A stretch of DNA of 64,000 nt from Stappia sediminis (GTDB lineage Bacteria > Pseudomonadota > Alphaproteobacteria > Rhizobiales > Stappiaceae). Position numbers and translations under genes: made by a program. The notes below the pieces were generated by a model. That model searched no databases. It was not told the DNA's origin and worked only from the letters and a program-made list of their open reading frames with translations. The DNA lies in assembly GCF_009826895.1 (NCBI RefSeq), contig NZ_WUMV01000002.1, positions 372,001-436,000 of the forward strand, read 5' to 3'. Below, in pieces: positions 48,505-63,736 of the stretch (within the stretch, counting starts at the first letter, position 1; the number at the start of each line of letters is the position of its first letter).

Positions 48505-48506
48505 AT
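48205..48506 (-). pseudogene. Possible frameshifted receiver-like regulator remnant
   Basis: A 56-residue frame (48336-48506) starts in a TGATG overlap with the glycosyltransferase stop. It ends VRVLVIGRSPLVLCMILAKL plus QEFGIFA, which looks like strand 1 and helix 1 of a response-regulator receiver domain with the Asp pair missing. In another minus frame the next 130 bases read AESCRKNILLLLDSFNTQ, like strand 3 with the phosphorylatable Asp, at about the right spacing. One frameshift would join them. Alternatively the 56-residue frame is a genuine short protein. Confidence 0.4.
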
Positions 48507-49795
48507 CAAAGCCGGATATCGCCCGTCGGCGTTTTCTCTTCGTATATGCCCCTGTTGTCGATACCTGCAGCGGGGTATTGGTGCCGAGTGCCAGTCATGC
48601 GTTCGATCAGCTTTCGGTTTTGATTGAGGCAACTCATCAGCCCGTAACGCGAAATGACAGTTTGTCGGGCAGCTGACCGCATGCGCGAAAATGCGCCGGG
48701 ATGGCGCAGGATCTCGAGCGTCGTCTCGGCAATTTCTTGCGGGCTCCAGAAATCGACAAGCCTTCCGTTTTCTCCATCGCTCACGACTTCCTCTACCGGT
48801 GCGGTGGCGGAGGCGATCACCGCGCAGCCGCATGACATGGCCTCGAGGAACGACCAGGAAAGGACGAACGGATAGGTGAGATATATGTGCGCTGCAGAAA
48901 CCTGAAACAGACGCATGAGCGAAGAGTGCGGCAACTGGCCGAGAAAGTGGATTCTGTCCGGCGGCAGAGCGGTTTCGCGCATCAGGGCTTCGCGCCAGGT
49001 GAGTCCGTCATCGCGCGCCTTTCCGTAGCTGACGCCATCCCCGCCGGCGACGACGAATCGCGCTTCTGGATTTCGTTTTGCGATGATGCTGGCGGCTTGC
49101 ATGAATTGCGGGAAGCCGCGATATGGTTCCAGGTCACGGGAGGCGAAGGTGATTACCGGATCGCCTTTGGCGAACATCGTGCCGTCGGGCAGTTCGAAGG
49201 TTGCAGAATGATCCGGACGCGCCCGGTTGGTGTCGATACCTTCGTGGATAACAGAAATACGCGGCCGATAGAGAGAAGGGTACCTGCTTCGCTGCCAGTG
49301 TGTCGGGCTGATCCCGCCGTCCAGTTGATCGAGAGTTGTTAGCTGCGTGGAGTTCCTGAGCCGCATCTGCTGCAGTTCCCGAAGTCCAACCGATTCGGTT
49401 GGGTCGAAACCGGAATCTCCGCCTGCAGGTTGAAAGTAGTATTCGCAGTAACCGAGTGCGGGAGTGTCGGGAAGGGCATCCTTTACAAACAGCATGCCGC
49501 CCCACGCGATATGGCCGAGGACGATATCGGGCGCCCCTTCGCGACTGGCGATCTTGCTGAGGATTTCCGCCACTCGGGAGCCGGCGGAAACATGGGGAAG
49601 CATCAAGGAGGAACCGGCGGCGGGGCCTGACACTTCCTGTGCCGTTCCGCCTGCGTATGTGATGATCTTCATTCCGCGAATCCTTGATTCGGCGGATTGC
49701 GTGATCAAGGTGACTTTCCATCCATCTTCCGCGAAATTCTGCGCGAGATAGCGGAATTGAGCCGGTCCTTTTCGGTGTACCAATGCGATGTGCAT
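48506..49795 (-). CDS. GT4-family glycosyltransferase
   Basis: A 429-residue GT-B glycosyltransferase. The N-terminal acceptor domain begins MHIALVHRKGPAQFRYLAQN. The C-terminal nucleotide-sugar domain includes VITFASRDLEPYRGFPQFMQ, RIHFLGQLPHSSLMRLF and the EX7E-like segment SFLEAMSCGCAVIASATAPVEE. It starts 16 bases after the MarR gene stop, so the two are co-transcribed, in the place where the Sinorhizobium EPS II locus has the wgcA (expC) glycosyltransferase beside wggR. That link is positional. Confidence 0.87.
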   Translation of the reverse strand: MHIALVHRKGPAQFRYLAQNFAEDGWKVTLITQSAESRIRGMKIITYAGGTAQEVSGPAAGSSLMLPHVSAGSRVAEILSKIASREGAPDIVLGHIAWGGMLFVKDALPDTPALGYCEYYFQPAGGDSGFDPTESVGLRELQQMRLRNSTQLTTLDQLDGGISPTHWQRSRYPSLYRPRISVIHEGIDTNRARPDHSATFELPDGTMFAKGDPVITFASRDLEPYRGFPQFMQAASIIAKRNPEARFVVAGGDGVSYGKARDDGLTWREALMRETALPPDRIHFLGQLPHSSLMRLFQVSAAHIYLTYPFVLSWSFLEAMSCGCAVIASATAPVEEVVSDGENGRLVDFWSPQEIAETTLEILRHPGAFSRMRSAARQTVISRYGLMSCLNQNRKLIERMTGTRHQYPAAGIDNRGIYEEKTPTGDIRL

Positions 49796-49811
49796 CACCG
49801 GCCGTTTCCGG

Positions 49812-50402
49812 TCAGCGAATGTCGAGATCGGACGGGCCGATGCCCGGAAGCCCGGTAGCCCAGGCAACCTCAAGCCGCCGCAACGTATTTACGGTTTCTT
49901 GCAGCGCCAGCAAATCCCTTTCGTTCCTGACGATAAGCCTCTGGTTTGCTTCATCGGCGGCGCGCACGTCCTCACACAGGCTTTTTCCCTTGTCCGTCAG
50001 CTTGATACGGGCCGAGCGCTTGTCTCGCTGCGACGGCGTGCGGTCGACATAGCCCGCCTGTACGAGTTGTTTCAGGCTGTAGGAAGCATTCGATCCGAGG
50101 TAGTGCCCCCGGTCGAGCAGGTCGCGAACGGAAAGGTCGTTGTCGCCGATGGTGAACAGCAGCATGACCTGCGAAGGAGAAACGTCGTCCGCACCGAGGC
50201 GATTCAGATCGAGCCGCAGCCGGTCCAGATACCTGCGATGCATTCGTTCGATGATTCTCACAAGCTCAAGATGTGTAACTTTATGACGGGTGTTACTTAT
50301 CTTTTCATCGCTCACGCTGTTTAACCGTTCTTTCGTCCATGGCCTGTGATGACCGTCTTGTTCGTCGGTGAATTGTGCCATTTCGATCGTGTTTTTTTCC
50401 AT
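49812..50402 (-). CDS. MarR-family regulator (WggR/ExpG-like)
   Basis: A 196-residue winged-helix regulator. The HTH core is NDLSVRDLLDRGHYLGSNASYSLKQLVQAGYVDRT, followed by the wing RDKRSARIKLTDKG, with an N-terminal extension of about 50 residues. The ATG at 50402 follows GAGG and lies at the end of the AT-rich promoter; upstream in-frame ATGs fall inside that region. It is divergent from the secretion genes, exactly where wggR (expG, mucS), activator of galactoglucan genes, sits in Sinorhizobium. Confidence 0.85.
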   Translation of the reverse strand: MEKNTIEMAQFTDEQDGHHRPWTKERLNSVSDEKISNTRHKVTHLELVRIIERMHRRYLDRLRLDLNRLGADDVSPSQVMLLFTIGDNDLSVRDLLDRGHYLGSNASYSLKQLVQAGYVDRTPSQRDKRSARIKLTDKGKSLCEDVRAADEANQRLIVRNERDLLALQETVNTLRRLEVAWATGLPGIGPSDLDIR

Positions 50403-50562
50403 GTGCCTCGATACTCCGGAGTGGTTTCGAACGAAATTCGAAATAAATTCACAGATATTTCCTCCCATTTTATGTACATTTTTATGTTTAACTCGCCGCA
50501 TTCCTGGTCGATTAAGAATTTCACTAGATCGCCATAATTTATATGGCATTGTTTTATTGTTA

Positions 50563-50579
50563 TAGTCTCTATGGATGCA
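50563..50579 (+). promoter_or_regulatory. Shared upstream motif, copy 1 (secretion operon)
   Basis: TAGTCTCTATGGATGCA lies 99 bases before the ABC exporter start. A copy with 14 of 17 identical bases lies ahead of the RTX gene. It sits just after an AT-rich stretch with a TATAGT -10-like word. Candidate MarR regulator or promoter element. Confidence 0.5.
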
Positions 50580-50677
50580 TGACATCTGTATGGAAAACTT
50601 GTGTCGTTTTCGGGGCAATTGGTTGGCGTGCTTGCGTCGGCCGGATGCACCGTAGTCAAGCTAAGGTATCGAGTTAA

Positions 50678-52423
50678 ATGATCGGACGCCGAAATAAAGA
50701 CTCCGGCGATACTTCTACACTTGTGCGGAATGCTCGCAAAACCTTCGCCGCAGGGTTGCTTGGTGCCGGAGCGTTAAGCGGTTTCATAAGTCTCCTGCAA
50801 CTTACCGTTCCCCTGTTCATGTTGCAGGTCCATGACCGCGTCTTAAGCAGTCAAAGCCTCGATACGCTCAGGATGCTGATAATTATCGCCGCAGGAGCGC
50901 TTGCTCTTTATGGTATTCTGGAGTTTGTCCGCGGGCTCGTGTTTCAGGTGATGGGGGCCGCACTTGTTCGCAAGTTGAACCTGCCCGCTTTGGAGGCGGG
51001 CGTCAGGTCATCGCTGGAAAGCGGCAGCGCTCTCGCGTCCGAAACCCTTCGCGACCTTAATGATCTGAGATCCTTCATAACGAGCAATGCGATAAGCGCT
51101 CCGCTTGAGGCGATCTGGGCGCCCATTTTTTTGTTTGTCCTGTTTATGCTCCATCCGCTCTACGGACTTCTGGCTGTCATATCCGCGTCCATTCTTGTCG
51201 GATTGAATCTCCTGTCGGACCTTCTGACGCGGCCGATCCTCAAGGAAGCGAATGCGGCGAACCGGGAGAATGTCGCCAGAATCGGGTCGACCTTGAGGCA
51301 TGCCGAAACCATCGAGGCGATGGGAATCATGCCGGCGCTGGCCAAGCGATGGAGAGCCAGCCAGTTTCACGCCAACGATTTGATGACGCTGGGCAACACA
51401 CGAAGCAAGGCGATACATGCCGCAACGCGCTCCCTGCGATTCGGCATGCAGGTGACGGTGCTTTCGCTTGGCGCGTCGCTCGTGATCCGTGGAGACGCCA
51501 CCCCCGGCACGATGATCGCCGCAAGCATCATCATGGGCAGGCTGCTGATGCCTTTCGACAATCTGACGGAAAACTGGCGGCAATGGGTGTTTGCGCTTGC
51601 GGCGTGGAAAAGGGTGCGCGACGTCATGGAGAATCACTCATCCACCCGTCAGACGATCCCGACGCCGCGATCCGAAGGCGACCTTGTCGTGGACAGGCTG
51701 GTCTATGCCGCGCCGAATACTCAGGTTCCGGTGATCAAGGGGATTTCCTTTTCGCTTCAACCGGGAGAAGTGCTGGGGGTCGTCGGGCCATCCGCGGCCG
51801 GAAAATCGACGCTTGCCCGTCTGCTTGTTGGCGCGCTTCAGCCGACTTCGGGCGGAATATTCCTCGATGGTCACAACGTTTATCTCTGGGAGCGCGCATC
51901 CTTCGGCGCGATGGTCGGATACCTGCCGCAGTCCGTCTCGTTGCTCGACGGCACGGTGCGGGAAAACATCGCGCGGATGTATGAAGCGGACCCGCGCCTC
52001 GTCATCGATGCGGCAAGGGCCGCAGGCGTGCACGAAATGATCGGACGCATGCCGCTTGGCTATGACACGCCGGTGGGCGATGGCCGATACACATTGTCGG
52101 GAGGGCAAAAGCAGAGGGTTGCCCTGGCTCGCGCGCTATTCGGGCGCCCGCGGTTGCTGGTGCTGGACGAGCCCAACGCCAATCTCGACACCGAAGGCGA
52201 GACGGCATTGCTGCAGGCGATTTCCTCCGCAAGGGCGGACGGTGCGATCGTCATCATCATCGCCCACAGACCGGCGATCATGGAAGCCGCCGACAAGATT
52301 CTGGTGCTTCAGGAAGGACGCATAACGCAATTCGGCGAACGAACGCAGGTCGTGAGCAATATCGCCTCACGCCTGCAGTCAAAATCGGTGGCACCTGCAA
52401 TTACGCCGGGAGAAGTCGCATGA
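50678..52423 (+). CDS. Type I secretion ABC exporter (PrtD-type, wgdA/expD1-like)
   Basis: A 581-residue fused permease-ATPase for one-step protein export. Six spans lie in residues 25-320 (LLGAGALSGFISLLQLTVPL, FMLQVHDRVLSS is the PrtD landmark). The ATPase has Walker A GPSAAGKST near residue 371, signature LSGGQKQRVALARALF near 475 and Walker B LLVLDEPNANLD. No peptidase C39 domain is present. The cargo is probably the RTX protein encoded two genes on. ATGA-coupled to the adaptor. Confidence 0.92.
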   Translation: MIGRRNKDSGDTSTLVRNARKTFAAGLLGAGALSGFISLLQLTVPLFMLQVHDRVLSSQSLDTLRMLIIIAAGALALYGILEFVRGLVFQVMGAALVRKLNLPALEAGVRSSLESGSALASETLRDLNDLRSFITSNAISAPLEAIWAPIFLFVLFMLHPLYGLLAVISASILVGLNLLSDLLTRPILKEANAANRENVARIGSTLRHAETIEAMGIMPALAKRWRASQFHANDLMTLGNTRSKAIHAATRSLRFGMQVTVLSLGASLVIRGDATPGTMIAASIIMGRLLMPFDNLTENWRQWVFALAAWKRVRDVMENHSSTRQTIPTPRSEGDLVVDRLVYAAPNTQVPVIKGISFSLQPGEVLGVVGPSAAGKSTLARLLVGALQPTSGGIFLDGHNVYLWERASFGAMVGYLPQSVSLLDGTVRENIARMYEADPRLVIDAARAAGVHEMIGRMPLGYDTPVGDGRYTLSGGQKQRVALARALFGRPRLLVLDEPNANLDTEGETALLQAISSARADGAIVIIIAHRPAIMEAADKILVLQEGRITQFGERTQVVSNIASRLQSKSVAPAITPGEVA

Positions 52424-53805
52424 ACCGGGAATTGAGGGTCCATAAAAATCGGATCGAGACTCCGGTTCCCCCGGAGACGGATGCCGAGCCGTGGTACATG
52501 CGCGCCTTCGAAGACGATGAGCCGCGTCCGAGCCTGCGGACACCGCTTGTTGCCGGCGCTATCGCCATATTGGTGGGCTTCGGCGGATTTCTTGGATGGG
52601 GGTTCACCGCCAACCTGGACAGCGCCGCAATTGCGACCGGCAATGTGATCGTGGACAGTCAGCGAAAGACGATCACCCATCTTGAAGGCGGAATCCTCAA
52701 GCGGTTGCTGGTGCAGGAGGGGGAATTCGTCGAAAAGGGGCAACCCCTTGTAGAGTTGGACGAAACGCGCGCACGTGCCGACCTCGAACAGTTGCGTGGC
52801 AAGCGAATAGGTCTGATGGCCATGATTTCCCGGCTGAAGGCTGAACGGGACACGGCGGGCCAAATCGAATTTCCTCGCGAGTTGCAGGAAAGCGGTTCCG
52901 AGATCGTTGCCGATGTTATCGCTGCAGAACGGCGCCTGTTTGAAAAGCGTCGCGAAGTTTACGAAGGCAAGATCGCCTATCAGCAAAAGGAAATTGAGCA
53001 GTACACCGCGCAGATAGAGGCAGCGGAAGCCCAGATATCCGCCAATCGGGAGCGGCGACGCCTCTTGAAGGAACGCGTCGATGCGCTGACGGGGCTTGAA
53101 AAGAAGGGGTATGCCTCCAAAGCGAATTTGAGCGTCGTCGAACTCGAATTGAATGAGTTGATCGGGGATGGCGGCGAACTTGTGGCCGAAAAGGCCCGTT
53201 CGGAAAAGGCAAGGCAAGGGGCGGAGGTTGCCGTTCTTTCGATCGAGCAGGAATTGCAGAGCGAAATTGCCGGCAAACTCCTTGAGGCGCAACTCGAACT
53301 CAATGCGACGAACGAACAGCTCAAATCGGCGCGGGATGTCCTGGACAGACTTGTCGTCCACGCTCCTCAGGGCGGCATTGTCTACAATGTTCAAATGCGC
53401 ACGCCCGGTGGCGTGGTCGAGCCCGGCAAGCCGATCATGGATATCGTGCCGAAGGACGAAAAGCTGCTTGTCGAAGCGCGAATGAACCTCCGCGATATCG
53501 ATTCAGTGCATGTCGGATCGAAAACCAGGGTCAGGCTCACCGCCTACGACATCCGGAAGACGCCGCCGCTTGATGGAGAGGTAACGTTCGTCGCTGCGGA
53601 CCAGACCGTCGATGACAAGAACCAGGTGGCCTACTATGTGGTCCGCGCGGAGATCGATCCGGCCGAATTGAAAGACAATCCCCTGGTCGCCCTTTACCCC
53701 GGCATGCCGGCGGAACTTCAAATAATGCGACGATCCCGCAAGGCAATCGAGTATTTGGTCGAGCCGATTACCGAAAGTTTCAATCGCGCATTTCGTGAAG
53801 ATTGA
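52420..53805 (+). CDS. Type I secretion adaptor (HlyD family, wgdB/expD2-like)
   Basis: A 461-residue membrane fusion protein with a single N-terminal span (about residues 44-64, LVAGAIAILVGFGGFLGWGF), lipoyl half DSQRKTITHLEGGILKRLLV, a long coiled-coil hairpin over about 110-290, the second lipoyl half VVHAPQGGIVYNVQMRTPGG and a C-terminal HlyD barrel (DIRKTPPLDGEVTFVAADQT). It bridges the ABC exporter to a TolC-type channel, which is not encoded in the window. Confidence 0.92.
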   Translation: MNRELRVHKNRIETPVPPETDAEPWYMRAFEDDEPRPSLRTPLVAGAIAILVGFGGFLGWGFTANLDSAAIATGNVIVDSQRKTITHLEGGILKRLLVQEGEFVEKGQPLVELDETRARADLEQLRGKRIGLMAMISRLKAERDTAGQIEFPRELQESGSEIVADVIAAERRLFEKRREVYEGKIAYQQKEIEQYTAQIEAAEAQISANRERRRLLKERVDALTGLEKKGYASKANLSVVELELNELIGDGGELVAEKARSEKARQGAEVAVLSIEQELQSEIAGKLLEAQLELNATNEQLKSARDVLDRLVVHAPQGGIVYNVQMRTPGGVVEPGKPIMDIVPKDEKLLVEARMNLRDIDSVHVGSKTRVRLTAYDIRKTPPLDGEVTFVAADQTVDDKNQVAYYVVRAEIDPAELKDNPLVALYPGMPAELQIMRRSRKAIEYLVEPITESFNRAFRED

Positions 53806-54240: not shown

Positions 54241-54846
54241 ATGGCCACTTTAGAAGGCAGTGCCTATCAGGACTTCCTGGTCGGCACTAACGCGCCTGAC
54301 TTTATCTTCGGACTTGGCGGAAACGATATATTGCTCGGCAATGAGGGCGGCGATTTCGTCTTCGGCGATGATGGCAATGAAGTGATCTCCGGCGGAGAAG
54401 GAAACGACATGCTCTTCGGCGGAGCCGACGACGATGCGATTTTCGGAGATGCCGGCAACGACATGATCTTCGGCAATCAGGGCGACGACTACCTTTCCGG
54501 CGGCGAAGGCAACGATACCATTCTTGGCGGCGACGGAAACGACGTCATTGATGGCGGCGCAGGCAACGACGTCATGATCGGCGGAGACGGTTTCGACATC
54601 TTCGTGTTCAACGGCGGTGGCGGCAACGACCTGGTCATGGATTTCAACGCCGGCGAAGACCTGGTCCAGATTGCTTCAGACATCAACGGCACGGGTATAT
54701 CCTCGGCAGCCGATGTGGCCGCGCGCGCTTCGCAGGTCGGCAACAGCACGATCGTCGATCTGGGCAATGGCGACACGTTGACGTTGAACAACGTCGATGT
54801 GGACGACGTCCAGAGCGATCCCAGCACCTATTTCGTCATCTCGTGA
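54241..54846 (+). CDS. Small RTX calcium-binding secreted protein (wgeA/expE1-like)
   Basis: A 201-residue acidic protein with about eleven GGxGxDxxx nonapeptide repeats over residues 20-120 (for example SGGEGNDMLFGGADDDAIFG), the calcium-binding beta-roll of RTX proteins, and a C-terminal uncleaved type I secretion signal region ending DPSTYFVIS. It has no N-terminal signal peptide. The ATG at 54241 follows GGGAG. It lies directly behind the ABC exporter and adaptor, the likely export route. In Sinorhizobium the equivalent wgeA product is needed for galactoglucan export. Confidence 0.9.
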   Translation: MATLEGSAYQDFLVGTNAPDFIFGLGGNDILLGNEGGDFVFGDDGNEVISGGEGNDMLFGGADDDAIFGDAGNDMIFGNQGDDYLSGGEGNDTILGGDGNDVIDGGAGNDVMIGGDGFDIFVFNGGGGNDLVMDFNAGEDLVQIASDINGTGISSAADVAARASQVGNSTIVDLGNGDTLTLNNVDVDDVQSDPSTYFVIS

Positions 54847-55016: not shown

Positions 55017-57236
55017 ATGCCGATGCTTGATTCTGTAAGTCCGAATGACAGGATGACATTTGAAACTCCCGAGGTTTTCACGCTCGCTTCCGGTGTCTGC
55101 CTCGTCGTTTGGGACCTTCAGAACCGGGCCTGGACATCCCCCCGCCTGGAAGAAAGGGACGGCGGAAAGCTTTCGCCGGTTGCATGCGTGCGCCTTGCAC
55201 GAAATGACGGCGGAACAAGACTTCTTTGGGTATTTCGCAATGACGCGAACAAAACGCGTGAATTGCGGGCAAGCGCGGGTGCGATAGCGTCCGAGACGGA
55301 TATCCATGTGCCGCAGCCGGATGATATCGCTTTCGCGGATCCTCGAACGATCCTCAAGAACCTGTCGCTCAACGGTCGCGCGGCTATGATTTCGGCGCTT
55401 CTCAATACCTGGCCGGGGATCTTCAAGCTTGGCAGGAGCCGCAGTTTTACGGAGTTCGTCCTTCGCCTGCTTGGCGAGTTGAGTGAAGATCCGCCGCTGG
55501 CTGCCTGTTCGGCATCGGTCGGCGCGACCCGCATAATCGAGACGCGACTGGACGCAGGGTGCGATACCGTTTTGACGGCATCCCTTGTGACCGGCAATGG
55601 GGTGATGCGAATTGGCGGGAGTCCCTGCATTCTCGAGGAAAGCTCGAAAAACCGCCATCCCGTAATTTTGCTTGCAGAAATGCCGGTTCTTCCCAAGGGC
55701 GGATATCTGGTGCTTACCGGGCCTTGGGGGCTTGCGGTGCGCAAGCTCGATTTTTCCGCTGCCGGACAATCGCTCGTCCAGTGGTGGAATGCCCGAAAGC
55801 CCAGGAATGCGCGTCTTCGCGACTATGTAGTCTCGGTGCTCGGATCCCGTTCGAGGCAAGCGCGCTCAGCTGTGGTGGAGATGCAACTGGCAGACCCGCT
55901 TCCGGCAAGGCGCGTCAGCGGCGAGGGGCGCTTGTCTTCCCTGGCCGTGGAGGTTGCTCTTGGGGGAGAAAACGGAGTCCTGGTCGGCGGATGGATGCAT
56001 GACCCGATCGGGATGGTCGAAGCTATAGATCTGATCGATACATCCGGCGTATCGCATACGCTCGAATTGAATGAATTTCCGGGTGTTTTGCCCGAGGAGC
56101 AGGGCGCGCAACGCGTCACATGCTTTGCCGCGTTCGCGCCGGTAGCGAATTCATTCGACATTATGCTTCAGCCGCGTTTTGAGGCGAGATTCGCCTCCGG
56201 TGCGCGCCATTCGCTCATTCCGCCGCCGCAGCCGAGCGATCTCAATGAGATCAGAAGGCGGATGTTGTCGATCGTTCCACCTCAGCATCTTGCCGACGGC
56301 ATGCTCGAAAGTTGTCTCGCACCGGCCCTGTCGTCGATCCAGCATCGAATTCGGGCGTCGGTTGGCCGGCCAAAGGTGTCGGATATGGGTGTCGAGCATG
56401 CCAATCCCCAGGTTTCGATCGTCATTCCACTTTACAGGGAACTGGGGTTTCTCAAGGCGCAATTCGCCGCGCTGGCGACCGATCCATGGATCTCGGCAAA
56501 TGCCGAATTGATCTACGTGCTCGACTCGCCCGAGCAGGCGGGAGATGTCGAGGATCTGCTCGGCAGTTTCCATCTTCTGTTCGGGCAATCCGTAAAGCTG
56601 GCCGTGATGGAGAGGAATGCCGGATACGCAATGGCGTGCAACGCCGGAGCGCGTGTCGCTCGCGGCAGATACATCGCGATGCTCAATTCGGACGCGATCC
56701 CGGCAAAAGCCGGATGGCTCTCGTTGCTCGCAGCTTGCCTGCAGCGCGATGAGGGTATTGGTGTGGCCGGGGCCAAGCTTCTTTATGAAGACAATGCCAT
56801 CCAGCACGCCGGGCTTCACTTCATCCAGAACCAGGCCGGCAAGTGGTTCAATCACCACTATTTCAAGGGTTTTCCGCGTCATTTCGCCGATGCGAATGCC
56901 GAAAGGCAAGTCCCGGCGGTGACCGGCGCTTGCCTCGTGGTCGAGCGGAAGACTTACGAGGCCGTTGAAGGCTTCACGGAAGATTATGTTATCGGCGACT
57001 ACGAGGACAGCGACCTTTGCCTGAAGGTCAGGCGATCGGGGCAGGGCATCGCATATGTTCCCGAAGCCGAACTCTACCACTTCGAGCGCCGGTCGATCCG
57101 CAAGAATGCCGATTACACGCGCGGCGTCGCTTCCCAATACAACAGGTGGCTGCACCAATGCCGCTGGGAAGACGAGATCAAGGAGTTGATGACCGCGCCT
57201 GACGGCGCAAGCCGGGGCAAGAGGGTTGCCGCATGA
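55017..57236 (+). CDS. Large GT2-family glycosyltransferase (wgeB/expE2-like)
   Basis: A 739-residue protein. The N-terminal 450 residues have no clear named domain but contain a GVLVGGWMHDP module near residue 320 that recurs in two later genes. A GT-A family 2 domain runs from about 463 to 715: VSIVIPLYRELGFLK, then MLNSDAIPAKAGW in the nucleotide-sugar/metal position, VTGACLVVERKTYE and the acidic GDYEDSDLCLKVRRSG expected to supply the catalytic base. It probably adds a sugar to the polysaccharide repeat. ATGA-coupled to the methyltransferase gene. Confidence 0.87.
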   Translation: MPMLDSVSPNDRMTFETPEVFTLASGVCLVVWDLQNRAWTSPRLEERDGGKLSPVACVRLARNDGGTRLLWVFRNDANKTRELRASAGAIASETDIHVPQPDDIAFADPRTILKNLSLNGRAAMISALLNTWPGIFKLGRSRSFTEFVLRLLGELSEDPPLAACSASVGATRIIETRLDAGCDTVLTASLVTGNGVMRIGGSPCILEESSKNRHPVILLAEMPVLPKGGYLVLTGPWGLAVRKLDFSAAGQSLVQWWNARKPRNARLRDYVVSVLGSRSRQARSAVVEMQLADPLPARRVSGEGRLSSLAVEVALGGENGVLVGGWMHDPIGMVEAIDLIDTSGVSHTLELNEFPGVLPEEQGAQRVTCFAAFAPVANSFDIMLQPRFEARFASGARHSLIPPPQPSDLNEIRRRMLSIVPPQHLADGMLESCLAPALSSIQHRIRASVGRPKVSDMGVEHANPQVSIVIPLYRELGFLKAQFAALATDPWISANAELIYVLDSPEQAGDVEDLLGSFHLLFGQSVKLAVMERNAGYAMACNAGARVARGRYIAMLNSDAIPAKAGWLSLLAACLQRDEGIGVAGAKLLYEDNAIQHAGLHFIQNQAGKWFNHHYFKGFPRHFADANAERQVPAVTGACLVVERKTYEAVEGFTEDYVIGDYEDSDLCLKVRRSGQGIAYVPEAELYHFERRSIRKNADYTRGVASQYNRWLHQCRWEDEIKELMTAPDGASRGKRVAA

Positions 57237-58075
57237 ATACGGTTGCCCTTGTCCGCGAACCGTTTATCCAGCCAGCACCCCTTCAGGGCGAACGGCTGAA
57301 CGATTTCCTGAAGGTCGTTGAGCGCAACCGTTTCCTGCCGGTCCCGCCGCGCGATTCGATATTCGTGGGGGACGGGGACTTTCGTACGATTGGCTTGGAA
57401 TTCCTGCGCTATTTCATTGAGATCGGTGGATTGAGGGAAAACGATCGCGTTCTCGACGTGGGCTGCGGCATAGGCCGCATGGCGGTTCCGCTTACTCAAT
57501 ATCTGGATCCCGCGGCGGGTGAATATGCCGGCGTAGATCCTGCCGCATCGGGAATTGAATGGTGTTCGCGCAACATCGCCAGCCACTATCCTAACTTCCG
57601 TTTCACGCATATCGACGTGTCGCATCCGCTCTACAACCCTGATGGTTGTGTGGACGGTTCCGCCATTGCCTTGCCGTTCTCCGCGGGGGCGTATGACTTC
57701 GTGATCATGACGAGCGTCGTCACCCATCTTCCGGCATGCGAAATCCGTCCGTATTTCGCTGAAATTGCAAGGTTGCTGGCGCCCGGAGGGCGTTTCTTCA
57801 TCTCGGCATTCGTCATCGAAGACGGCATCGAACTGGATGGTGATGGCCGCGACCCCCGCCTCGGCTTCGAGCGTGAGGGGCAAGGGAGCGCGTGGCATGC
57901 CAACAAGGAAACGCCGCTTGCGGCCGTCGCCTTTGATGACGGGTTTCTGGATCGGCATCTGCGGGCGTCGGGTTTCGAGCTCGCGATCAAGCAACTGGGG
58001 CGTTGGCGCGGAAAGTCCGACGCACCGAATTATCAGGACTTCATTGTCGCGGTTAAGACGGCGAGGGGGGCATGA
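57233..58075 (+). CDS. SAM-dependent methyltransferase (wgeC/expE3 position)
   Basis: A 280-residue class I methyltransferase. Motif I VLDVGCGIGRMAVPL lies near residues 73-87, an acidic motif II segment YAGVDPAASGIEW follows, and VTHLPACEIRPYFAEIARLL is the later part of the fold. The acceptor is unknown; in this cluster it may methylate a sugar or a lipid-linked intermediate. It is ATGA-coupled on both sides. Confidence 0.85.
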   Translation: MNTVALVREPFIQPAPLQGERLNDFLKVVERNRFLPVPPRDSIFVGDGDFRTIGLEFLRYFIEIGGLRENDRVLDVGCGIGRMAVPLTQYLDPAAGEYAGVDPAASGIEWCSRNIASHYPNFRFTHIDVSHPLYNPDGCVDGSAIALPFSAGAYDFVIMTSVVTHLPACEIRPYFAEIARLLAPGGRFFISAFVIEDGIELDGDGRDPRLGFEREGQGSAWHANKETPLAAVAFDDGFLDRHLRASGFELAIKQLGRWRGKSDAPNYQDFIVAVKTARGA

Positions 58076-59334
58076 CCATGCGAATTCTTGTGCTGGCACA
58101 TAATCATCCCTCGCTTCATCCAGGTGGCACGGAGACCGTGGCCCACGAGCTTTTCCGCGAATACCGCGATGCTGGGCACGAGGCTTTGTTTCTTGCCGCT
58201 ACCAACCGTCTCCATCGGGAACCGCATCCGGGGACGAGCTTTCAGGCAATCGGCGACAGCCGTGACGAAATCCTGATGTGGGCAGGGCATTTCGACAGGC
58301 TCAGCATGAGCCAGATCGATCTCTACGGCTTCGTTCCCGATATGAAAAACCTGCTGGAGACGTTCCGGCCGGACGTCGTCCACATTCATCATCTGCTGTT
58401 GTTCGGTGTAGAGCTTCCGACCCTTATCCGCAGAACGCTTCCGGATGCGCGCATCGTCATGACGTTGCACGATTATTACGCGATTTGCGCAAACGACGGC
58501 GTGATGATGAAAAGCCCGCAGGAGCAATGCGCGGCATTCGAGCAGGGTGGACTTTGCAGCTGTATCGAAGATGTGCCGGCCGAGCGGATGCGCCTCAGGG
58601 AACGATATATCAAGACGCACCTCGAGGCTGTCGATCAATTCACATCACCCAGCGCATTCCTGCGCGATGCCTATGTAAGGTGGGGTATTGCGGGCGAAAA
58701 GATCGAATTGCTGCCCAACGGCAGGCCCGATGTGGATGCCGCCCTCGCAAGAAGCACCCTCTGCGATGCGAGGAACGTTTTCGGCTACTTCGGCAATCTT
58801 ACGCCCTGGAAAGGGATAGAGGTACTATTACGCGCCTGCAAAAGGCTCATTGAAGCGGACGTCGAATTCGAGCTTCGGGTGCATGGCGGAGCGCCTTTCC
58901 AGGGGGAGCGATTTGTCGACGAGATAGACGCGCTTTTCGACGAAACATCCGCCCGCGTCACCCGTGTCGGGCCTTACCGGCCGGAAGATATTCCGCGATT
59001 GATGCAGTCGATCGATTGGGTGGTGGTTCCTTCCGTCTGGTGGGAGAACGCGCCGCTCGTGATCGCAGAGGCACGCCAGCACAAGCGTCCCGTCATTGCA
59101 AGTGGCGTGGGCGGCATGGCCGAAGCGGTCAAGGATGGGGTCGACGGCCTGCATGCGCAAAGGAGCGATGTTTCCGATCTTGCGCGTGTCATGCGGCTTG
59201 CTGCCGGCGACCCGGATCTCCACCGCAGGCTTGTGGCCAACAACAGGCAGCCGCCATCGGTCGCGGCCGTGGCCGAGAGATATCTGCGCTTGTTCGCGAA
59301 ATTGAAGGCCGCGCCGCAGAACGCCGCGGCCTGA
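58072..59334 (+). CDS. GT4-family glycosyltransferase (wgeD/expE4 position)
   Basis: A 420-residue GT-B enzyme. The acceptor domain opens with ILVLAHNHPSLHPGGTETVAHE; the donor domain includes NVFGYFGNLTPWKGIEVLL, then VVVPSVWWENAPLVIAEARQHKRPVIAS with the EX7E-type Glu pair region, and GVGGMAEAVKDGVDGL. A Cys-rich insert (DGVMMKSPQEQCAAFEQGGL plus CSC) lies near residues 140-165. The closely similar paralogue five kilobases on (62378) shares this plan. The start overlaps the methyltransferase stop. Confidence 0.88.
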   Translation: MTMRILVLAHNHPSLHPGGTETVAHELFREYRDAGHEALFLAATNRLHREPHPGTSFQAIGDSRDEILMWAGHFDRLSMSQIDLYGFVPDMKNLLETFRPDVVHIHHLLLFGVELPTLIRRTLPDARIVMTLHDYYAICANDGVMMKSPQEQCAAFEQGGLCSCIEDVPAERMRLRERYIKTHLEAVDQFTSPSAFLRDAYVRWGIAGEKIELLPNGRPDVDAALARSTLCDARNVFGYFGNLTPWKGIEVLLRACKRLIEADVEFELRVHGGAPFQGERFVDEIDALFDETSARVTRVGPYRPEDIPRLMQSIDWVVVPSVWWENAPLVIAEARQHKRPVIASGVGGMAEAVKDGVDGLHAQRSDVSDLARVMRLAAGDPDLHRRLVANNRQPPSVAAVAERYLRLFAKLKAAPQNAAA

Positions 59335-59345
59335 GGAGATAGGAT

Positions 59346-60107
59346 ATGTCCGTCGCCAAAGCCGAACCGGCACAGACTTCACCCCGGGAGACCGGCGCGC
59401 GCGAAGGTACCAAGATCCAGGGCCGTATCGATGCCTTCGAGGATGGCAGGCTCTACGGTTGGGCATGGGATGCGGTTCATCCGGAAAGCCGGATGACGAT
59501 CCAGGTGTTCCTTGACGGACGACGATTGGTCACAACGGTCGCGGACACTCCCCGGGTCGATCTTCGCCGCAATGGCATAGGCGACGGAGCCTATGCTTTC
59601 GACCTCGAATTGCCGCAGGAAGCAAAAGCCTCGCCGGACGGATTGTCGGTTGTTGCCGTTTCGCCGCTCGACGGTTCGAAGCAGGCCCTGCGTCAGCCCG
59701 AGGCGGGGGAACGGGCGGCCGAAGCGGCGATCGCGCTTCCCTTGGCACGTGTAATGGAAAAGCTGGACCGGCTGCTGGCCGCACAGCGTCAGATCGCCGT
59801 CGGCCAAAGAGACGCGACGGCATTGCTGAAGGACACGACAAGCCGTCTCGACACGCTTGCCTCGACTGACGGGGAACTTGGTGAAGCGCTCGCCCTGCTG
59901 CGGGGAGGCCAGGGAGACCTTTCGCAGCGCGTCCAGGATCTTGAAGTATTTCTCGTTCGTTTTGACACGACGTTGAAGGCTTTCGAGGACCGCCTTGCCG
60001 ACCTCGCGGACAGACGCAGCGGCGGAGCGCCTCTCCACTTCATGCTCCTTGCGACGCTCGTCGGTGCCGTCGTCGGCATGATCGGCGCCATGATCGCAGG
60101 GTTCTGA
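59346..60107 (+). CDS. Membrane-anchored protein with GW module (wgeE/expE5 position)
   Basis: A 253-residue protein of no named family known to me. It has an N-terminal beta-rich module (IDAFEDGRLYGWAWDAVHPE ... RRNGIGDGAYAFDLELP, residues 22-95), a helical, probably coiled-coil middle (125-225), and a single C-terminal span FMLLATLVGAVVGMIGAMIAGF at about 231-252. The tail anchor places the rest in the cytoplasm or periplasm. It may tether the polysaccharide enzymes at the membrane. Confidence 0.7.
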   Translation: MSVAKAEPAQTSPRETGAREGTKIQGRIDAFEDGRLYGWAWDAVHPESRMTIQVFLDGRRLVTTVADTPRVDLRRNGIGDGAYAFDLELPQEAKASPDGLSVVAVSPLDGSKQALRQPEAGERAAEAAIALPLARVMEKLDRLLAAQRQIAVGQRDATALLKDTTSRLDTLASTDGELGEALALLRGGQGDLSQRVQDLEVFLVRFDTTLKAFEDRLADLADRRSGGAPLHFMLLATLVGAVVGMIGAMIAGF

Positions 60108-60110
60108 GGG

Positions 60111-62381
60111 ATGACGGACATAAGCAAGAGCAATGTTCTTAATCACGTCCACGGGATCGAAGTCGTAATGGATCACAGTGCAGAGACCGAGACGCAAACA
60201 AATCAACCCAACGCCCGCAGGTCATTGTTTCCGACCGACGGGCATACGGCGATACTCGCAATCCTTGACGAGGCGCATGCGCTCGTTGCCGGCCGCGGCG
60301 ATGCCATGTCCGCAAGCATGCCTATCCTATTGAACGGCGATCCCAACTCGCAGGTTCAGGGGCTTGTGGTCGGCTGGACGCCCGAACCGGCGCGAGAAGC
60401 GGAAGATCAGGCATTTCTGGCGCTCGTGCCTCTTCGCAACATGCGGCGCGGTCATCTTGAATCGATCGTGATGCGCGGCCGTGGAAAACCGGTGCGCTAT
60501 TCCATTCCCGCAGGCCCGCACGGGCTGGATGATTTTCTCGAAATCGTTGGCAGGAGTGCAGGCGCGAGCTTTCCGGAAGTCATAGACGGGCTCGCGGAGG
60601 GGTTGATCGCCGGCGACCCGTCATCGCGCAACATGCAATCCGCCGCGGCAATTTTGCAGAAGGTTTCACGCAACGATGGTTGTGTGGAAGTCGTTGGTCG
60701 GTTCGAGGAAGGCGAAGTCTTCGTCCAGGGTTGGGCGCAGCGTCTTTCGTCAGGCAGGATGAAGGTCATTGCCATCGATCACACGCCGAGGATTGCCCAA
60801 TTTTCCTGCGGGATATTCGAACGCGATGATCTGGGCGGCCGGGGGCAAGGCTATGCCGGTCTGCTTGAAACCCCGGAAGGGCTCGACCCGCAGCGGCTTC
60901 AACGGCTGCTCTATCGCGGGCGCGATGGGTGGAATTCAATCGAAGTCTATGATCGCCGCGTCATCGTCGATCCGCGCAGTGCGCCCGGGCACGTGCGCGC
61001 CGTGTTGCCTCGCCTGGTCGCAGCGAGTGAGCCGCTTTCTAAACTGAGGCGCGCGGCCAATCGGTTTGACGGGCGCGAAACGATCAGCGAGCTGCCGCTG
61101 CCAGTGCGCATCGGGATCGATCTTTCGGTCGAAGTGGAAAACGGTGGCATTCTTCTGTCGGGATGGCTTCTCGATCCCGACCGGCACGTGGAGGCGGTCC
61201 TGATCCGCTCTGGAGGCAAGTCCGCCAGGCTGGATGATATCTGGACCGCCAATAACCGGCGAGATGTATCGGCGGCATATTGCGCGGAAAAGCTTTTTGC
61301 CGGGCTCGACCCGGACGATCATTCGCATGGCTTCATCGCGTTCGCCCAGAACCTTCACGCGAAGCAGGGCGACACGCCCTATATCGAAATCAGGCTAAAG
61401 AACGGCTATTCGGCATACGAACCGCTTTCCGTCGCTCATGTGTCGCTGAAAAGCGCGTTGACGCGCCTGCTTTCCATCCACGATCCGTCCACCGCCTTGT
61501 CGAGCGAGGTGATCGAACACCACTACGCGTCCATGGTTTTTGGAGCGGAGCGCAATGCGCCCGAAGCAGGCGAAACGGTCGATTCCCCGGAATTTCCAGA
61601 TGCGGCTCAGAAGGCTCTCGTAATCGGAACCGATGCGTGCATCGACCAGGTCGGCACGTTGCTCGCCCTTGTTGCGCTCGATCCTCTGGTTCGAAGTCTT
61701 CCGATCGTGCTGGCGGGGCCTCGCAGGGCTCTGGCGGAACATATCGGAGAACTGAAGCGGGTCGCGAATTTCTACCATCTTTGCGTGCGGATCGTTCTTG
61801 CCGACGGGGTGGAGGATAGTTGCGACGCACTGGAGGCCGGTATCGCAGCGGCCCCCGCGGATACGCTCGTCTGCCTCTCGTCCCATGTGTTGCCGCGTCT
61901 TCCCGGGTGGATCGCGCCGCTGGAAAGGGCCTTTCGCGCGCGCAACAACCGGTGCATCGCCTGCCCGACGATCCTTTATGAGGACGATTCCATCCGCTGG
62001 GCAGGTATGTGGATCAAGGAAGGTCCGAAGGGACATGGCCTTGAGGATCACTATGCAGGTTATCCGCGTGGCGCACTCTTTGGCGCGGAACCCAGCGAAG
62101 TAGCCGCCGGCACGCTTGAATGCTGCATGCTTTCCAGATCTGCCTTCGCCGCTGCCGGCGGTTTCACCCGCGGATACCTCGGTACTGAAGAAAAAAGCCT
62201 GGACGCCGCCTTGAAGATGCGGCGGGCCGGTGTGTCTTCCATTTGGGTGCCGCAGGTGGAAATGCTGCGTCCCGAGGAAAGATCGGAAAACGGTCAACTC
62301 TGGCCGAACCTTGCCAAAAGGGTCGACCGGCAGGCATTCGATCGCCGGTGGTCGCTTGCAATCTCCAACATGAACGGATGA
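60111..62381 (+). CDS. Large GT2-like protein, probably non-catalytic (wgeF/expE6 position)
   Basis: A 756-residue protein. Three GW modules appear: GLVVGWTPEPA near residue 85, EVFVQGWAQRL near 200 and GGILLSGWLLDP near 345. The C-terminal 250 residues align by eye with the GT2 domain of the gene at 55017 (CPTILYEDDSIRWAGMWIKE, YLGTEEKSLDAALKMRRAG), but the nucleotide-sugar acidic motif is replaced (CLSSHVLPRLPGW for MLNSDAIPAKAGW) and the catalytic acidic run is altered. It looks like a duplicated, non-catalytic partner. Confidence 0.7.
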   Translation: MTDISKSNVLNHVHGIEVVMDHSAETETQTNQPNARRSLFPTDGHTAILAILDEAHALVAGRGDAMSASMPILLNGDPNSQVQGLVVGWTPEPAREAEDQAFLALVPLRNMRRGHLESIVMRGRGKPVRYSIPAGPHGLDDFLEIVGRSAGASFPEVIDGLAEGLIAGDPSSRNMQSAAAILQKVSRNDGCVEVVGRFEEGEVFVQGWAQRLSSGRMKVIAIDHTPRIAQFSCGIFERDDLGGRGQGYAGLLETPEGLDPQRLQRLLYRGRDGWNSIEVYDRRVIVDPRSAPGHVRAVLPRLVAASEPLSKLRRAANRFDGRETISELPLPVRIGIDLSVEVENGGILLSGWLLDPDRHVEAVLIRSGGKSARLDDIWTANNRRDVSAAYCAEKLFAGLDPDDHSHGFIAFAQNLHAKQGDTPYIEIRLKNGYSAYEPLSVAHVSLKSALTRLLSIHDPSTALSSEVIEHHYASMVFGAERNAPEAGETVDSPEFPDAAQKALVIGTDACIDQVGTLLALVALDPLVRSLPIVLAGPRRALAEHIGELKRVANFYHLCVRIVLADGVEDSCDALEAGIAAAPADTLVCLSSHVLPRLPGWIAPLERAFRARNNRCIACPTILYEDDSIRWAGMWIKEGPKGHGLEDHYAGYPRGALFGAEPSEVAAGTLECCMLSRSAFAAAGGFTRGYLGTEEKSLDAALKMRRAGVSSIWVPQVEMLRPEERSENGQLWPNLAKRVDRQAFDRRWSLAISNMNG

Positions 62382-63736
62382 AGAGCATGTCCACGAAGCC
62401 ATCCGACGTCAGCCGTTCAAAGCCTGAGGACATGAGGGTTCTCGTAATCTCTCACGGTCATCCGGACCTTTCCCTGGGAGGGGCCGAAGTCGCTTCCTAC
62501 AATCTCCACAAGGGATTGAACGAACTGGAGGGCGTCCGCTCCTTTTTCATGGCGCGCGTGGGGAGCCCGTATCCGCGCCACAGCGCATCGGCGCTGATGG
62601 GGCACCAAGGCGCCGACGACGAGATCCTTTACTTCGCGGACGACTACGATCACTTTCTCCTTTCGAACCGGAACACCGACGATATCCGCAGGGATCTGCA
62701 AAGGTTCCTGCGCACGCTGCGCCCGGATGTCGTCCACTTTCATCATTTCATCGGCTTGGGGCTCGAAACGCTCTTTGCGGTTCGCGAAACCCTTCCCGAA
62801 GCCGCGATCATCGTGACGTTTCACGAATTCCTTTCCTTGTGCCACCACCACGGACAAATGGTGAAGACGGGCGGCACGAAGCTTTGCAATGCTGCATCGC
62901 CGATCGCCTGCCATGGCTGCTTCCCGGATATTTCGCCGGGCGATTTCCTGCGCCGGGAGCGCTTCGTGCAGTCGATGCTCCAGATTGCCGACCACTATAT
63001 CTCGCCAAGCCGGTTTCTTGCGGAGCGCTATATCCGCTGGGGCCTGCCCGGCAATCGCATGAAAGTCATAGAAAACGGCTTGAACATCTCCAGCGAGGCT
63101 GAACCGCGCAGGCTCAGCAGCGAAGAGGACCGGCGTGGACGCTTCGCCTTTTTCGGTCAGCTCACTCCCTACAAAGGGGCCGACGTGCTTCTGGATGCCA
63201 TTGGCCGCGTGCCGGAAACGGCTTGGGGAGACGATGCGAGACTGATGATCTTCGGCGGCAATCTCGAACGCCAGCCGGAATGGTTTCAAAAAAAGATCGG
63301 CGAAAGCATCGAAAAGGCAGGCGACAGGGTCCGCTTTTACGGATCCTACCAGAACTCGGAAATGCCGCGGCTGATGCGCTCGGCGGATTGGGTCGTCATA
63401 CCTTCCGTGTGGTGGGAAAACTCACCGATCGTCATTCAGGAAGCGTTCTTCCATCGCAGGCCGCTCATCTCCAGCAACATCGGGGGAATGGCGGAGAAGA
63501 TACGCGATGGCGTCGATGGCATGCACTTCAGGGTCGGCAGCGCGGAAGACCTCGCGGACAGGATGACCGAGGCACTCACGGAGCCTGACCTTTGGGAAAG
63601 GTTGCGGGCCGGCATCAGGCGCCCGTCCACGCATGTCGAATGCGCCGAGGCGCATTTGGAGCTCTATCGCGGTCTCGTCGAAGGAACATCGGCACTCGAT
63701 GACGACGGAACGCAAGCCATGAAGCAGACAGCCTGA
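62378..63736 (+). CDS. GT4-family glycosyltransferase (wgeG/expE7 position)
   Basis: A 452-residue GT-B enzyme. It opens with VLVISHGHPDLSLGGAEVAS, shares a CHGCF/CN cysteine insert around residues 168-190 with its paralogue at 58072, and has the donor-domain run FAFFGQLTPYKGADVLLDAI and VVIPSVWWENSPIVIQEAFF, HRRPLISSNIGGMAEKI. I set the start at the ATGA overlap with the preceding gene; the ATG at 62387 is also possible. It ends 41 bases before the next gene. Confidence 0.88.
   Translation: MKSMSTKPSDVSRSKPEDMRVLVISHGHPDLSLGGAEVASYNLHKGLNELEGVRSFFMARVGSPYPRHSASALMGHQGADDEILYFADDYDHFLLSNRNTDDIRRDLQRFLRTLRPDVVHFHHFIGLGLETLFAVRETLPEAAIIVTFHEFLSLCHHHGQMVKTGGTKLCNAASPIACHGCFPDISPGDFLRRERFVQSMLQIADHYISPSRFLAERYIRWGLPGNRMKVIENGLNISSEAEPRRLSSEEDRRGRFAFFGQLTPYKGADVLLDAIGRVPETAWGDDARLMIFGGNLERQPEWFQKKIGESIEKAGDRVRFYGSYQNSEMPRLMRSADWVVIPSVWWENSPIVIQEAFFHRRPLISSNIGGMAEKIRDGVDGMHFRVGSAEDLADRMTEALTEPDLWERLRAGIRRPSTHVECAEAHLELYRGLVEGTSALDDDGTQAMKQTA

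Follow-up and report, generated by a model that had tools for sequence, protein, structure and literature searches.

WgeF, a predicted and conserved pseudo-glycosyltransferase encoded in the galactoglucan (wge/exp) cluster of Stappia sediminis

The stretch of Stappia sediminis DNA analysed here (64,000 nucleotides, hereafter the window) carries the wgcA-wggR-wgdAB-wgeA-H (exp) cluster for galactoglucan (EPS II), with the genes in the order wgcA, wggR (reverse), wgdA, wgdB, wgeA, wgeB, wgeC, wgeD, wgeE, wgeF and wgeG, followed just past the window end by a pyruvyl transferase gene and galE. The gene that concerns us, at 60111-62381 on the forward strand, is the wgeF (expE6) member of this cluster, a single intact open reading frame for a 756-residue product annotated as 'hypothetical protein'. 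The genes are listed below with the evidence for each assignment.

48506-49873, reverse strand: wgcA (expC) orthologue, GT4 (PF12000, 5e-46, as in the S. meliloti gene)
49812-50618, reverse strand: wggR (expG) orthologue, MarR-type regulator, true start uncertain (synteny and similarity; MarR annotation in orthologous loci)
50678-52423, forward strand: wgdA (expD1) orthologue, type I secretion ABC transporter (TIGR01842, 4e-185)
52420-53805, forward strand: wgdB (expD2) orthologue, HlyD-type adaptor (TIGR01843, 2e-109)
54241-54846, forward strand: wgeA (expE1) orthologue, short RTX calcium-binding protein (PF00353, 1e-28)
55017-57236, forward strand: wgeB (expE2) orthologue, active GT2 paralogue of WgeF with all motifs intact (PF13641, 6e-11; PF00535, 7e-11; motif census)
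57233-58075, forward strand: wgeC (expE3) orthologue, SAM methyltransferase (PF13649, 3e-16; synteny)
58072-59334, forward strand: wgeD (expE4) orthologue, GT4 (profile matches, synteny)
59346-60107, forward strand: wgeE (expE5) orthologue, with a 'GWAWD' domain, a coiled coil and a C-terminal membrane segment (sequence, synteny)
60111-62381, forward strand: wgeF (expE6) orthologue, 756-residue putative pseudo-glycosyltransferase (intact reading frame, full-length orthologues 30-43% identical, kept synteny, no Pfam match)
62378-63736, forward strand: wgeG (expE7) orthologue, GT4, its start overlapping the wgeF stop (ATGA) (PF13692/PF00534; E-x7-E in ENSPIVIQE)

Chelatococcus, Phyllobacterium, Sinorhizobium, Ensifer, Neorhizobium and Bosea share this gene order, which is altered in Azospirillum and Paracoccus; by orthologue group, it is wgeA-B-C-D-(E)-F-G(-H) that is kept beside wgdAB, wggR and wgcA. 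The orthologue in S. meliloti 1021 lies on pSymB at 972164-974620, within the published galactoglucan cluster and between wgeH and wgeE, and because these two genes are SMb21307 and SMb21310, respectively (PMC12542648), the order of locus tags makes it SMb21309, wgeF. The S. meliloti protein (WgeF/ExpE6) occupies the same slot in the same order, with a full-length similarity of about 33% and the same motif losses, and does not differ in principle from that of S. sediminis. An earlier note on this DNA, made from the letters alone, had tied the gene to polymer synthesis, and the synteny with the galactoglucan cluster bears this out. Reviews give transferase roles to WgaB, WgeB, WgaC, WgcA, WgeD and WgeG and none to WgeF (PMC3233446, PMC1403797), and neither a function for WgeF nor a paper that discusses it was found in the literature searched, which took in reviews.

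Some further observations concern the make-up of the cluster. In S. meliloti RCAM1115 (L027:8810-12026) the reading frames of wgeB and wgeC are broken into several pieces, by either a strain mutation or a sequencing error, and both are intact in other S. meliloti. Between the pyruvyl transferase gene and galE a putative secreted protein of unknown family is encoded (L037:2819-4150, G000:C11:436818-438149); hypothetical genes resembling it occur close to the cluster in Chelatococcus and in Azospirillum, in the second case with a match to GH43 that is very weak. A DUF6212 protein, from the family of a gene on the wgaA side in S. meliloti, is encoded in the same genome some 340 kb from the wge cluster (G000:C11:85534-86709, L068), which may mean that the wga part has become separated.

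WgeF has no Pfam match even at E<=10 and no NCBIfam match, GT2 profiles miss it altogether, and a search of viral contigs returned no relative. By the two Pfam matches listed above its neighbour WgeB is a clear GT2, and it is to WgeB that WgeF is related, with an E-value of 2e-17 in a single-sequence search within the genome and, profile against profile, a probability of 99.9 and an E-value of 6.7e-35 over 408 columns that include a β-rich 'GWxxDP' domain before the GT-A domain; on these values the resemblance is not due to chance. The last ∼255 residues of WgeF align with the GT2 domain of WgeB, for example as ILYEDDSIRWAGMWI against LLYEDNAIQHAGLHF and CCMLSRSAF against CLVVERKTY. The parallel between the C-terminal domain and the GT2 of the gene at 55017 had been drawn already in the earlier note, and all of the blocks that it quoted do align. 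The segment that it considered, 61450-62381, corresponds to residues 447-756, and the GT-A domain proper begins near residue 500 (61608). The following features were located within wgeF, all on the forward strand and with WgeB residues numbered as in the S. sediminis protein.

61107-61455: β-rich 'GWLLDP' domain ahead of GT-A, common to WgeB (hhalign alignment from residue 335; strands in the low-confidence full model)
61608-62354: putative degenerate GT-A domain, residues ∼500-748 (AF2 model, GT-A matches at Z 15-18, motif census)
61815-61826: D569-S-C-D572, in place of the N-x-G nucleotide loop (D569 in 42/43 and D572 in 40/43 orthologues)
61878-61886: S590-S591-H592, in place of the metal motif NSD (Asp at the last position in 1/43 orthologues and 25/25 WgeB)
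62193-62198: K695-S696, in place of the catalytic Glu-Asp, E663-D664 (Lys/Arg at the Glu position in 42/43 with no Asp next to it; Glu and Asp in 25/25 WgeB)

To assess how far the active site departs from that of a working enzyme, we compared the aligned GT-A domains of 43 WgeF orthologues with those of 25 active WgeB paralogues. The uridine-site Asp-503 and the nucleotide-loop residues Asn-534 and Asn-542, each present in 25/25 WgeB, occur in none of the 43 WgeF proteins, and the same is true of the catalytic pair, with Glu-663 replaced by Lys or Arg in all but one of the orthologues and Asp-664 usually by Gly. The metal Asp-559 of the NSD motif, which the WgeB profile places on the DCD metal motif of the chondroitin polymerase K4CP, is likewise invariant in WgeB and survives in a single WgeF, and His-597 of WgeB has become Trp in 40 of the orthologues. 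Thus the two replacements described in the earlier note, of NSD by SSH (N557-S558-D559 of WgeB against S590-S591-H592) and of the ED run (E663-D664 against K695-S696), hold at the residue level; new here are the loss of Asp-503 and of the N-x-G...N loop, the family-wide extent of the loss and the placing of the gene in the galactoglucan (wge/exp) cluster. Six further diverged WgeF proteins from other families also lack Asp-503, Asn-534 and Asn-542, so that the check suggested in the note, whether all orthologues lack the acidic residues, is borne out for the nucleotide-binding residues and fails for the metal Asp, which is found in 3/49 proteins, two of which (L085 and L087, both diverged) keep an Asp at the base position as well. 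Whether catalytic sites are over-represented among the lost invariants was asked with a Fisher test, and its p of 0.07 is suggestive only, because many other invariant positions have changed too.

In place of the lost residues WgeF has fixed residues of its own, D569 (42/43), D572, R629, W630, C672, K695 and D739 (43/43). The positions D569, D572, R629, W630, E/D670, K695 and D739 are held constant in 40-43 of the 43 orthologues and set them apart from the active family. Taken with the losses in the census, these residues indicate that the donor site has gone throughout the family and that the pocket has probably been rebuilt. The note had named, as evidence against inactivation, a second set of acidic residues completing a GT-A site; no such set is found at the canonical positions, but new conserved acidic residues do exist (D569, D572, E/D670 and D739) and might serve a different chemistry.

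The overall shape of the domain is predicted to be retained. An AF2 model of the C-terminal domain, built from four sequences, has a pLDDT of 70 and a pTM of 0.76, and a fold search with it returned GT-A matches at Z 15-18, among them 9jn3 (18.0) and the chondroitin polymerase K4CP (2z87, 17.1); CHSY3-CHPF is also one of the fold matches. The full-length AlphaFold model, from few input sequences, is weak (pLDDT 47), and searches of the PDB with WgeF by phmmer and by profile found no true relative, so that structural relatives come from the fold search only. Some GT-A enzymes function without a metal, and with the fold apparently kept and Asp retained at the metal and base positions of two diverged orthologues, WgeF might still transfer sugars, from a donor site of an unusual kind that needs no metal. 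We regard this as very unlikely, as no orthologue has the uridine Asp or either of the loop Asn residues and the base is mostly replaced by Lys-Gly, changes that would abolish nucleotide binding and chemistry alike.

Loss of a site could also mean decay, either of a pseudogene or as a recent event in one strain, and the missing Pfam match and a broken copy in one relative (G209; L051/L056, a frame change with TGA) are what such decay would leave. However, the reading frame is intact in nearly all genomes, new invariant residues have arisen, and pairwise dN/dS for the WgeF GT-A domain is 0.02-0.23 in all pairs, the same range as in WgeB, which refutes this explanation to the point that we give it a negligible chance and argues instead for a maintained pseudoenzyme. 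A disrupted WgeB also occurs, reading through TGA and TAA (G148:C1:760782-762971). The family-wide loss of donor-site and catalytic motifs, the kept fold and the purifying selection together strongly support, at the level of comparative sequence analysis, WgeF as a conserved pseudo-glycosyltransferase, the identity that the earlier note had proposed.

In a tree of the GT2 domains WgeF forms one clade apart from WgeB, with support of 100/100 and a long stem, and catalysis was therefore probably lost a single time. We considered whether WgeF and WgeG had descended as a unit from a pair consisting of an active GT2 and a WgeG-like GT4, as is present in three clusters (L106, L118 and L119). The WgeG tree permits this origin, but in the GT2 tree WgeF falls within the WgeB proteins; an AU test rejected neither pair descent nor an origin within WgeB (p 0.115 and 0.323), and WgeF may have come from WgeB or from another GT2. 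One of these clusters, of a different kind (L106:6300-12760, G794), has two consecutive GT2-GT4 pairs downstream of galE with both GT2s motif-intact, an active-active counterpart of WgeB/WgeD and WgeF/WgeG.

The company that the gene keeps bears on what the protein may do. In about 39/44 loci the stop codon of wgeF and the start codon of wgeG overlap, WgeF and WgeG are jointly present or jointly absent in the clusters inspected, and the related clusters without WgeF (L111-L116) are also without WgeG. Four smaller clusters (L111, L112, L113 and L115) have RTX, WgeB and a WgeD-type GT4 with no WgeF or WgeG, and two of them have type I secretion genes. Among 397 genomes of the host's order, the 16 that encode WgeF are precisely the 16 that encode full-length WgeB. 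Two plasmids of Paracoccus yeei carry a pair of degenerate-looking GT2-like genes, and both of their GT4 genes keep E-x7-E; the gene in the WgeB position (L031:12514-14484, L110:8514-10484) is a degenerate GT2 with no N-x-G loop and no ED run, the motifs being read from L031 only. An active WgeB is therefore not always needed, and the P. yeei pattern favours WgeG, or the whole complex, over WgeB alone; we infer that the partner of WgeF would be one of these two proteins. The 'GRLYGWAWD' domain of WgeE (59346-60107) resembles the β domains of WgeB and WgeF, and WgeE could tether a complex to the membrane.

The minimal P. yeei cluster, in which WgeF and two GT4 genes are accompanied by RTX and type I secretion genes, might be taken to mean that WgeF serves not the glycosyltransferases but the RTX/type I secretion branch, where it would assist WgeA as chaperone or attachment factor. 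This seems to us distinctly improbable, since wgeF is coupled to wgeG and not to wgeA or wgdAB, and since clusters with RTX and WgeB, some also with type I secretion (L111, L113 and L115), do without WgeF, so that secretion of WgeA would be independent of it. Direct glycosylation of WgeA by the cluster was considered as well, as a further conceivable role.

An enzyme-like shape, the long-standing loss of the residues that an enzyme needs and a gene kept intact in its cluster suggest instead that WgeF is probably a non-catalytic partner of neighboring enzymes, and the account we favour, with somewhat more confidence than doubt, is that it is a structural subunit of a cytoplasmic galactoglucan glycosyltransferase complex in which WgeG or WgeB is held or activated. 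The GT-A domain, preceded by the β-rich domain, would bind neither nucleotide-sugar donor nor metal and would provide no catalytic base; WgeF would act by holding or activating an enzyme that still works, whether WgeG, the GT4 to which it is translationally coupled, or its active paralogue WgeB, and the remodelled pocket may hold the growing glycan. The protein would accordingly be expected to be inactive in vitro and to form a complex, and the choice of partner and chain holding are put forward in the same conditional sense. Two properties expected of a non-catalytic partner subunit are seen here, namely a paralogous active glycosyltransferase encoded alongside and a donor site apparently lost under purifying selection, and a scaffold or regulatory role, as suggested in the note, is plausible.

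The fixed pocket residues can be read in another way, as a donor pocket rebuilt (D569, D572, R629, W630, E/D670, K695 and D739) for a new catalytic or ligand-binding function, whose object might be, for instance, the glycan itself or a donor of pyruvyl or acyl groups. Such constancy under strong selection exceeds what a passive scaffold needs, but WgeF carries no motif of another known enzyme, matches no Pfam or NCBIfam family, and sits in a cluster in which the pyruvyl transferase and the methyltransferase are separate genes, and we consider this unlikely. In its boldest form, which we hold equally doubtful, WgeF would represent a new family whose pocket, rebuilt around D569, R629, W630, K695 and D739, holds the galactoglucan chain or performs a step other than glycosyl transfer, and which together with the GT4 WgeG, the GT2 WgeB and the type I secretion/RTX branch would make up an assembly machine without a classical Wzx/Wzy-type polymerase in the cluster.

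There is precedent for the structural subunit that we prefer. GtfB of the streptococcal adhesin glycosyltransferase GtfA-GtfB resembles WgeF in being a non-catalytic partner with a glycosyltransferase fold whose gene adjoins that of the active enzyme, in a locus where glycosylation is linked to export, but unlike WgeF it has a GT-B fold and acts in protein O-glycosylation and accessory Sec export. Comparable too are CHPF and CHPF2 of the human chondroitin polymerase, partners of CHSY1/3, which are likewise paralogues of the active subunit that have lost donor residues, carry a linker domain beside GT-A and act in polymer synthesis; CHSY activity depends on CHPF even though CHPF is without the UDP-binding residues (PMC12748766). 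These proteins are eukaryotic and Golgi-luminal, have two GT domains per chain and form a proven complex, whereas that of WgeF is a predicted one, and common descent is not evident beyond the GT-A fold. EXT2, in the obligate heterodimer of the heparan sulfate polymerase, also retains an inactive domain, its pseudo-GlcA-transferase (PMC9675754), but its second domain is active, whereas the single GT domain of WgeF appears to be dead. The likeness to CHPF and EXT2 is best regarded as a functional analogy and not as membership.

S. meliloti has two exopolysaccharides that are active in symbiosis, of which galactoglucan is one, and what the wge genes do has been assigned mostly from sequence. A conserved dead glycosyltransferase would give WgeF, still annotated as hypothetical, a named hypothesis, and would place exopolysaccharide synthesis in bacteria next to two polymerases, CHSY-CHPF and EXT1-EXT2, in which the dead paralogue is an obligate subunit. 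It is also a reason for caution, in that WgeF should not be counted as a transferase when linkages are assigned.
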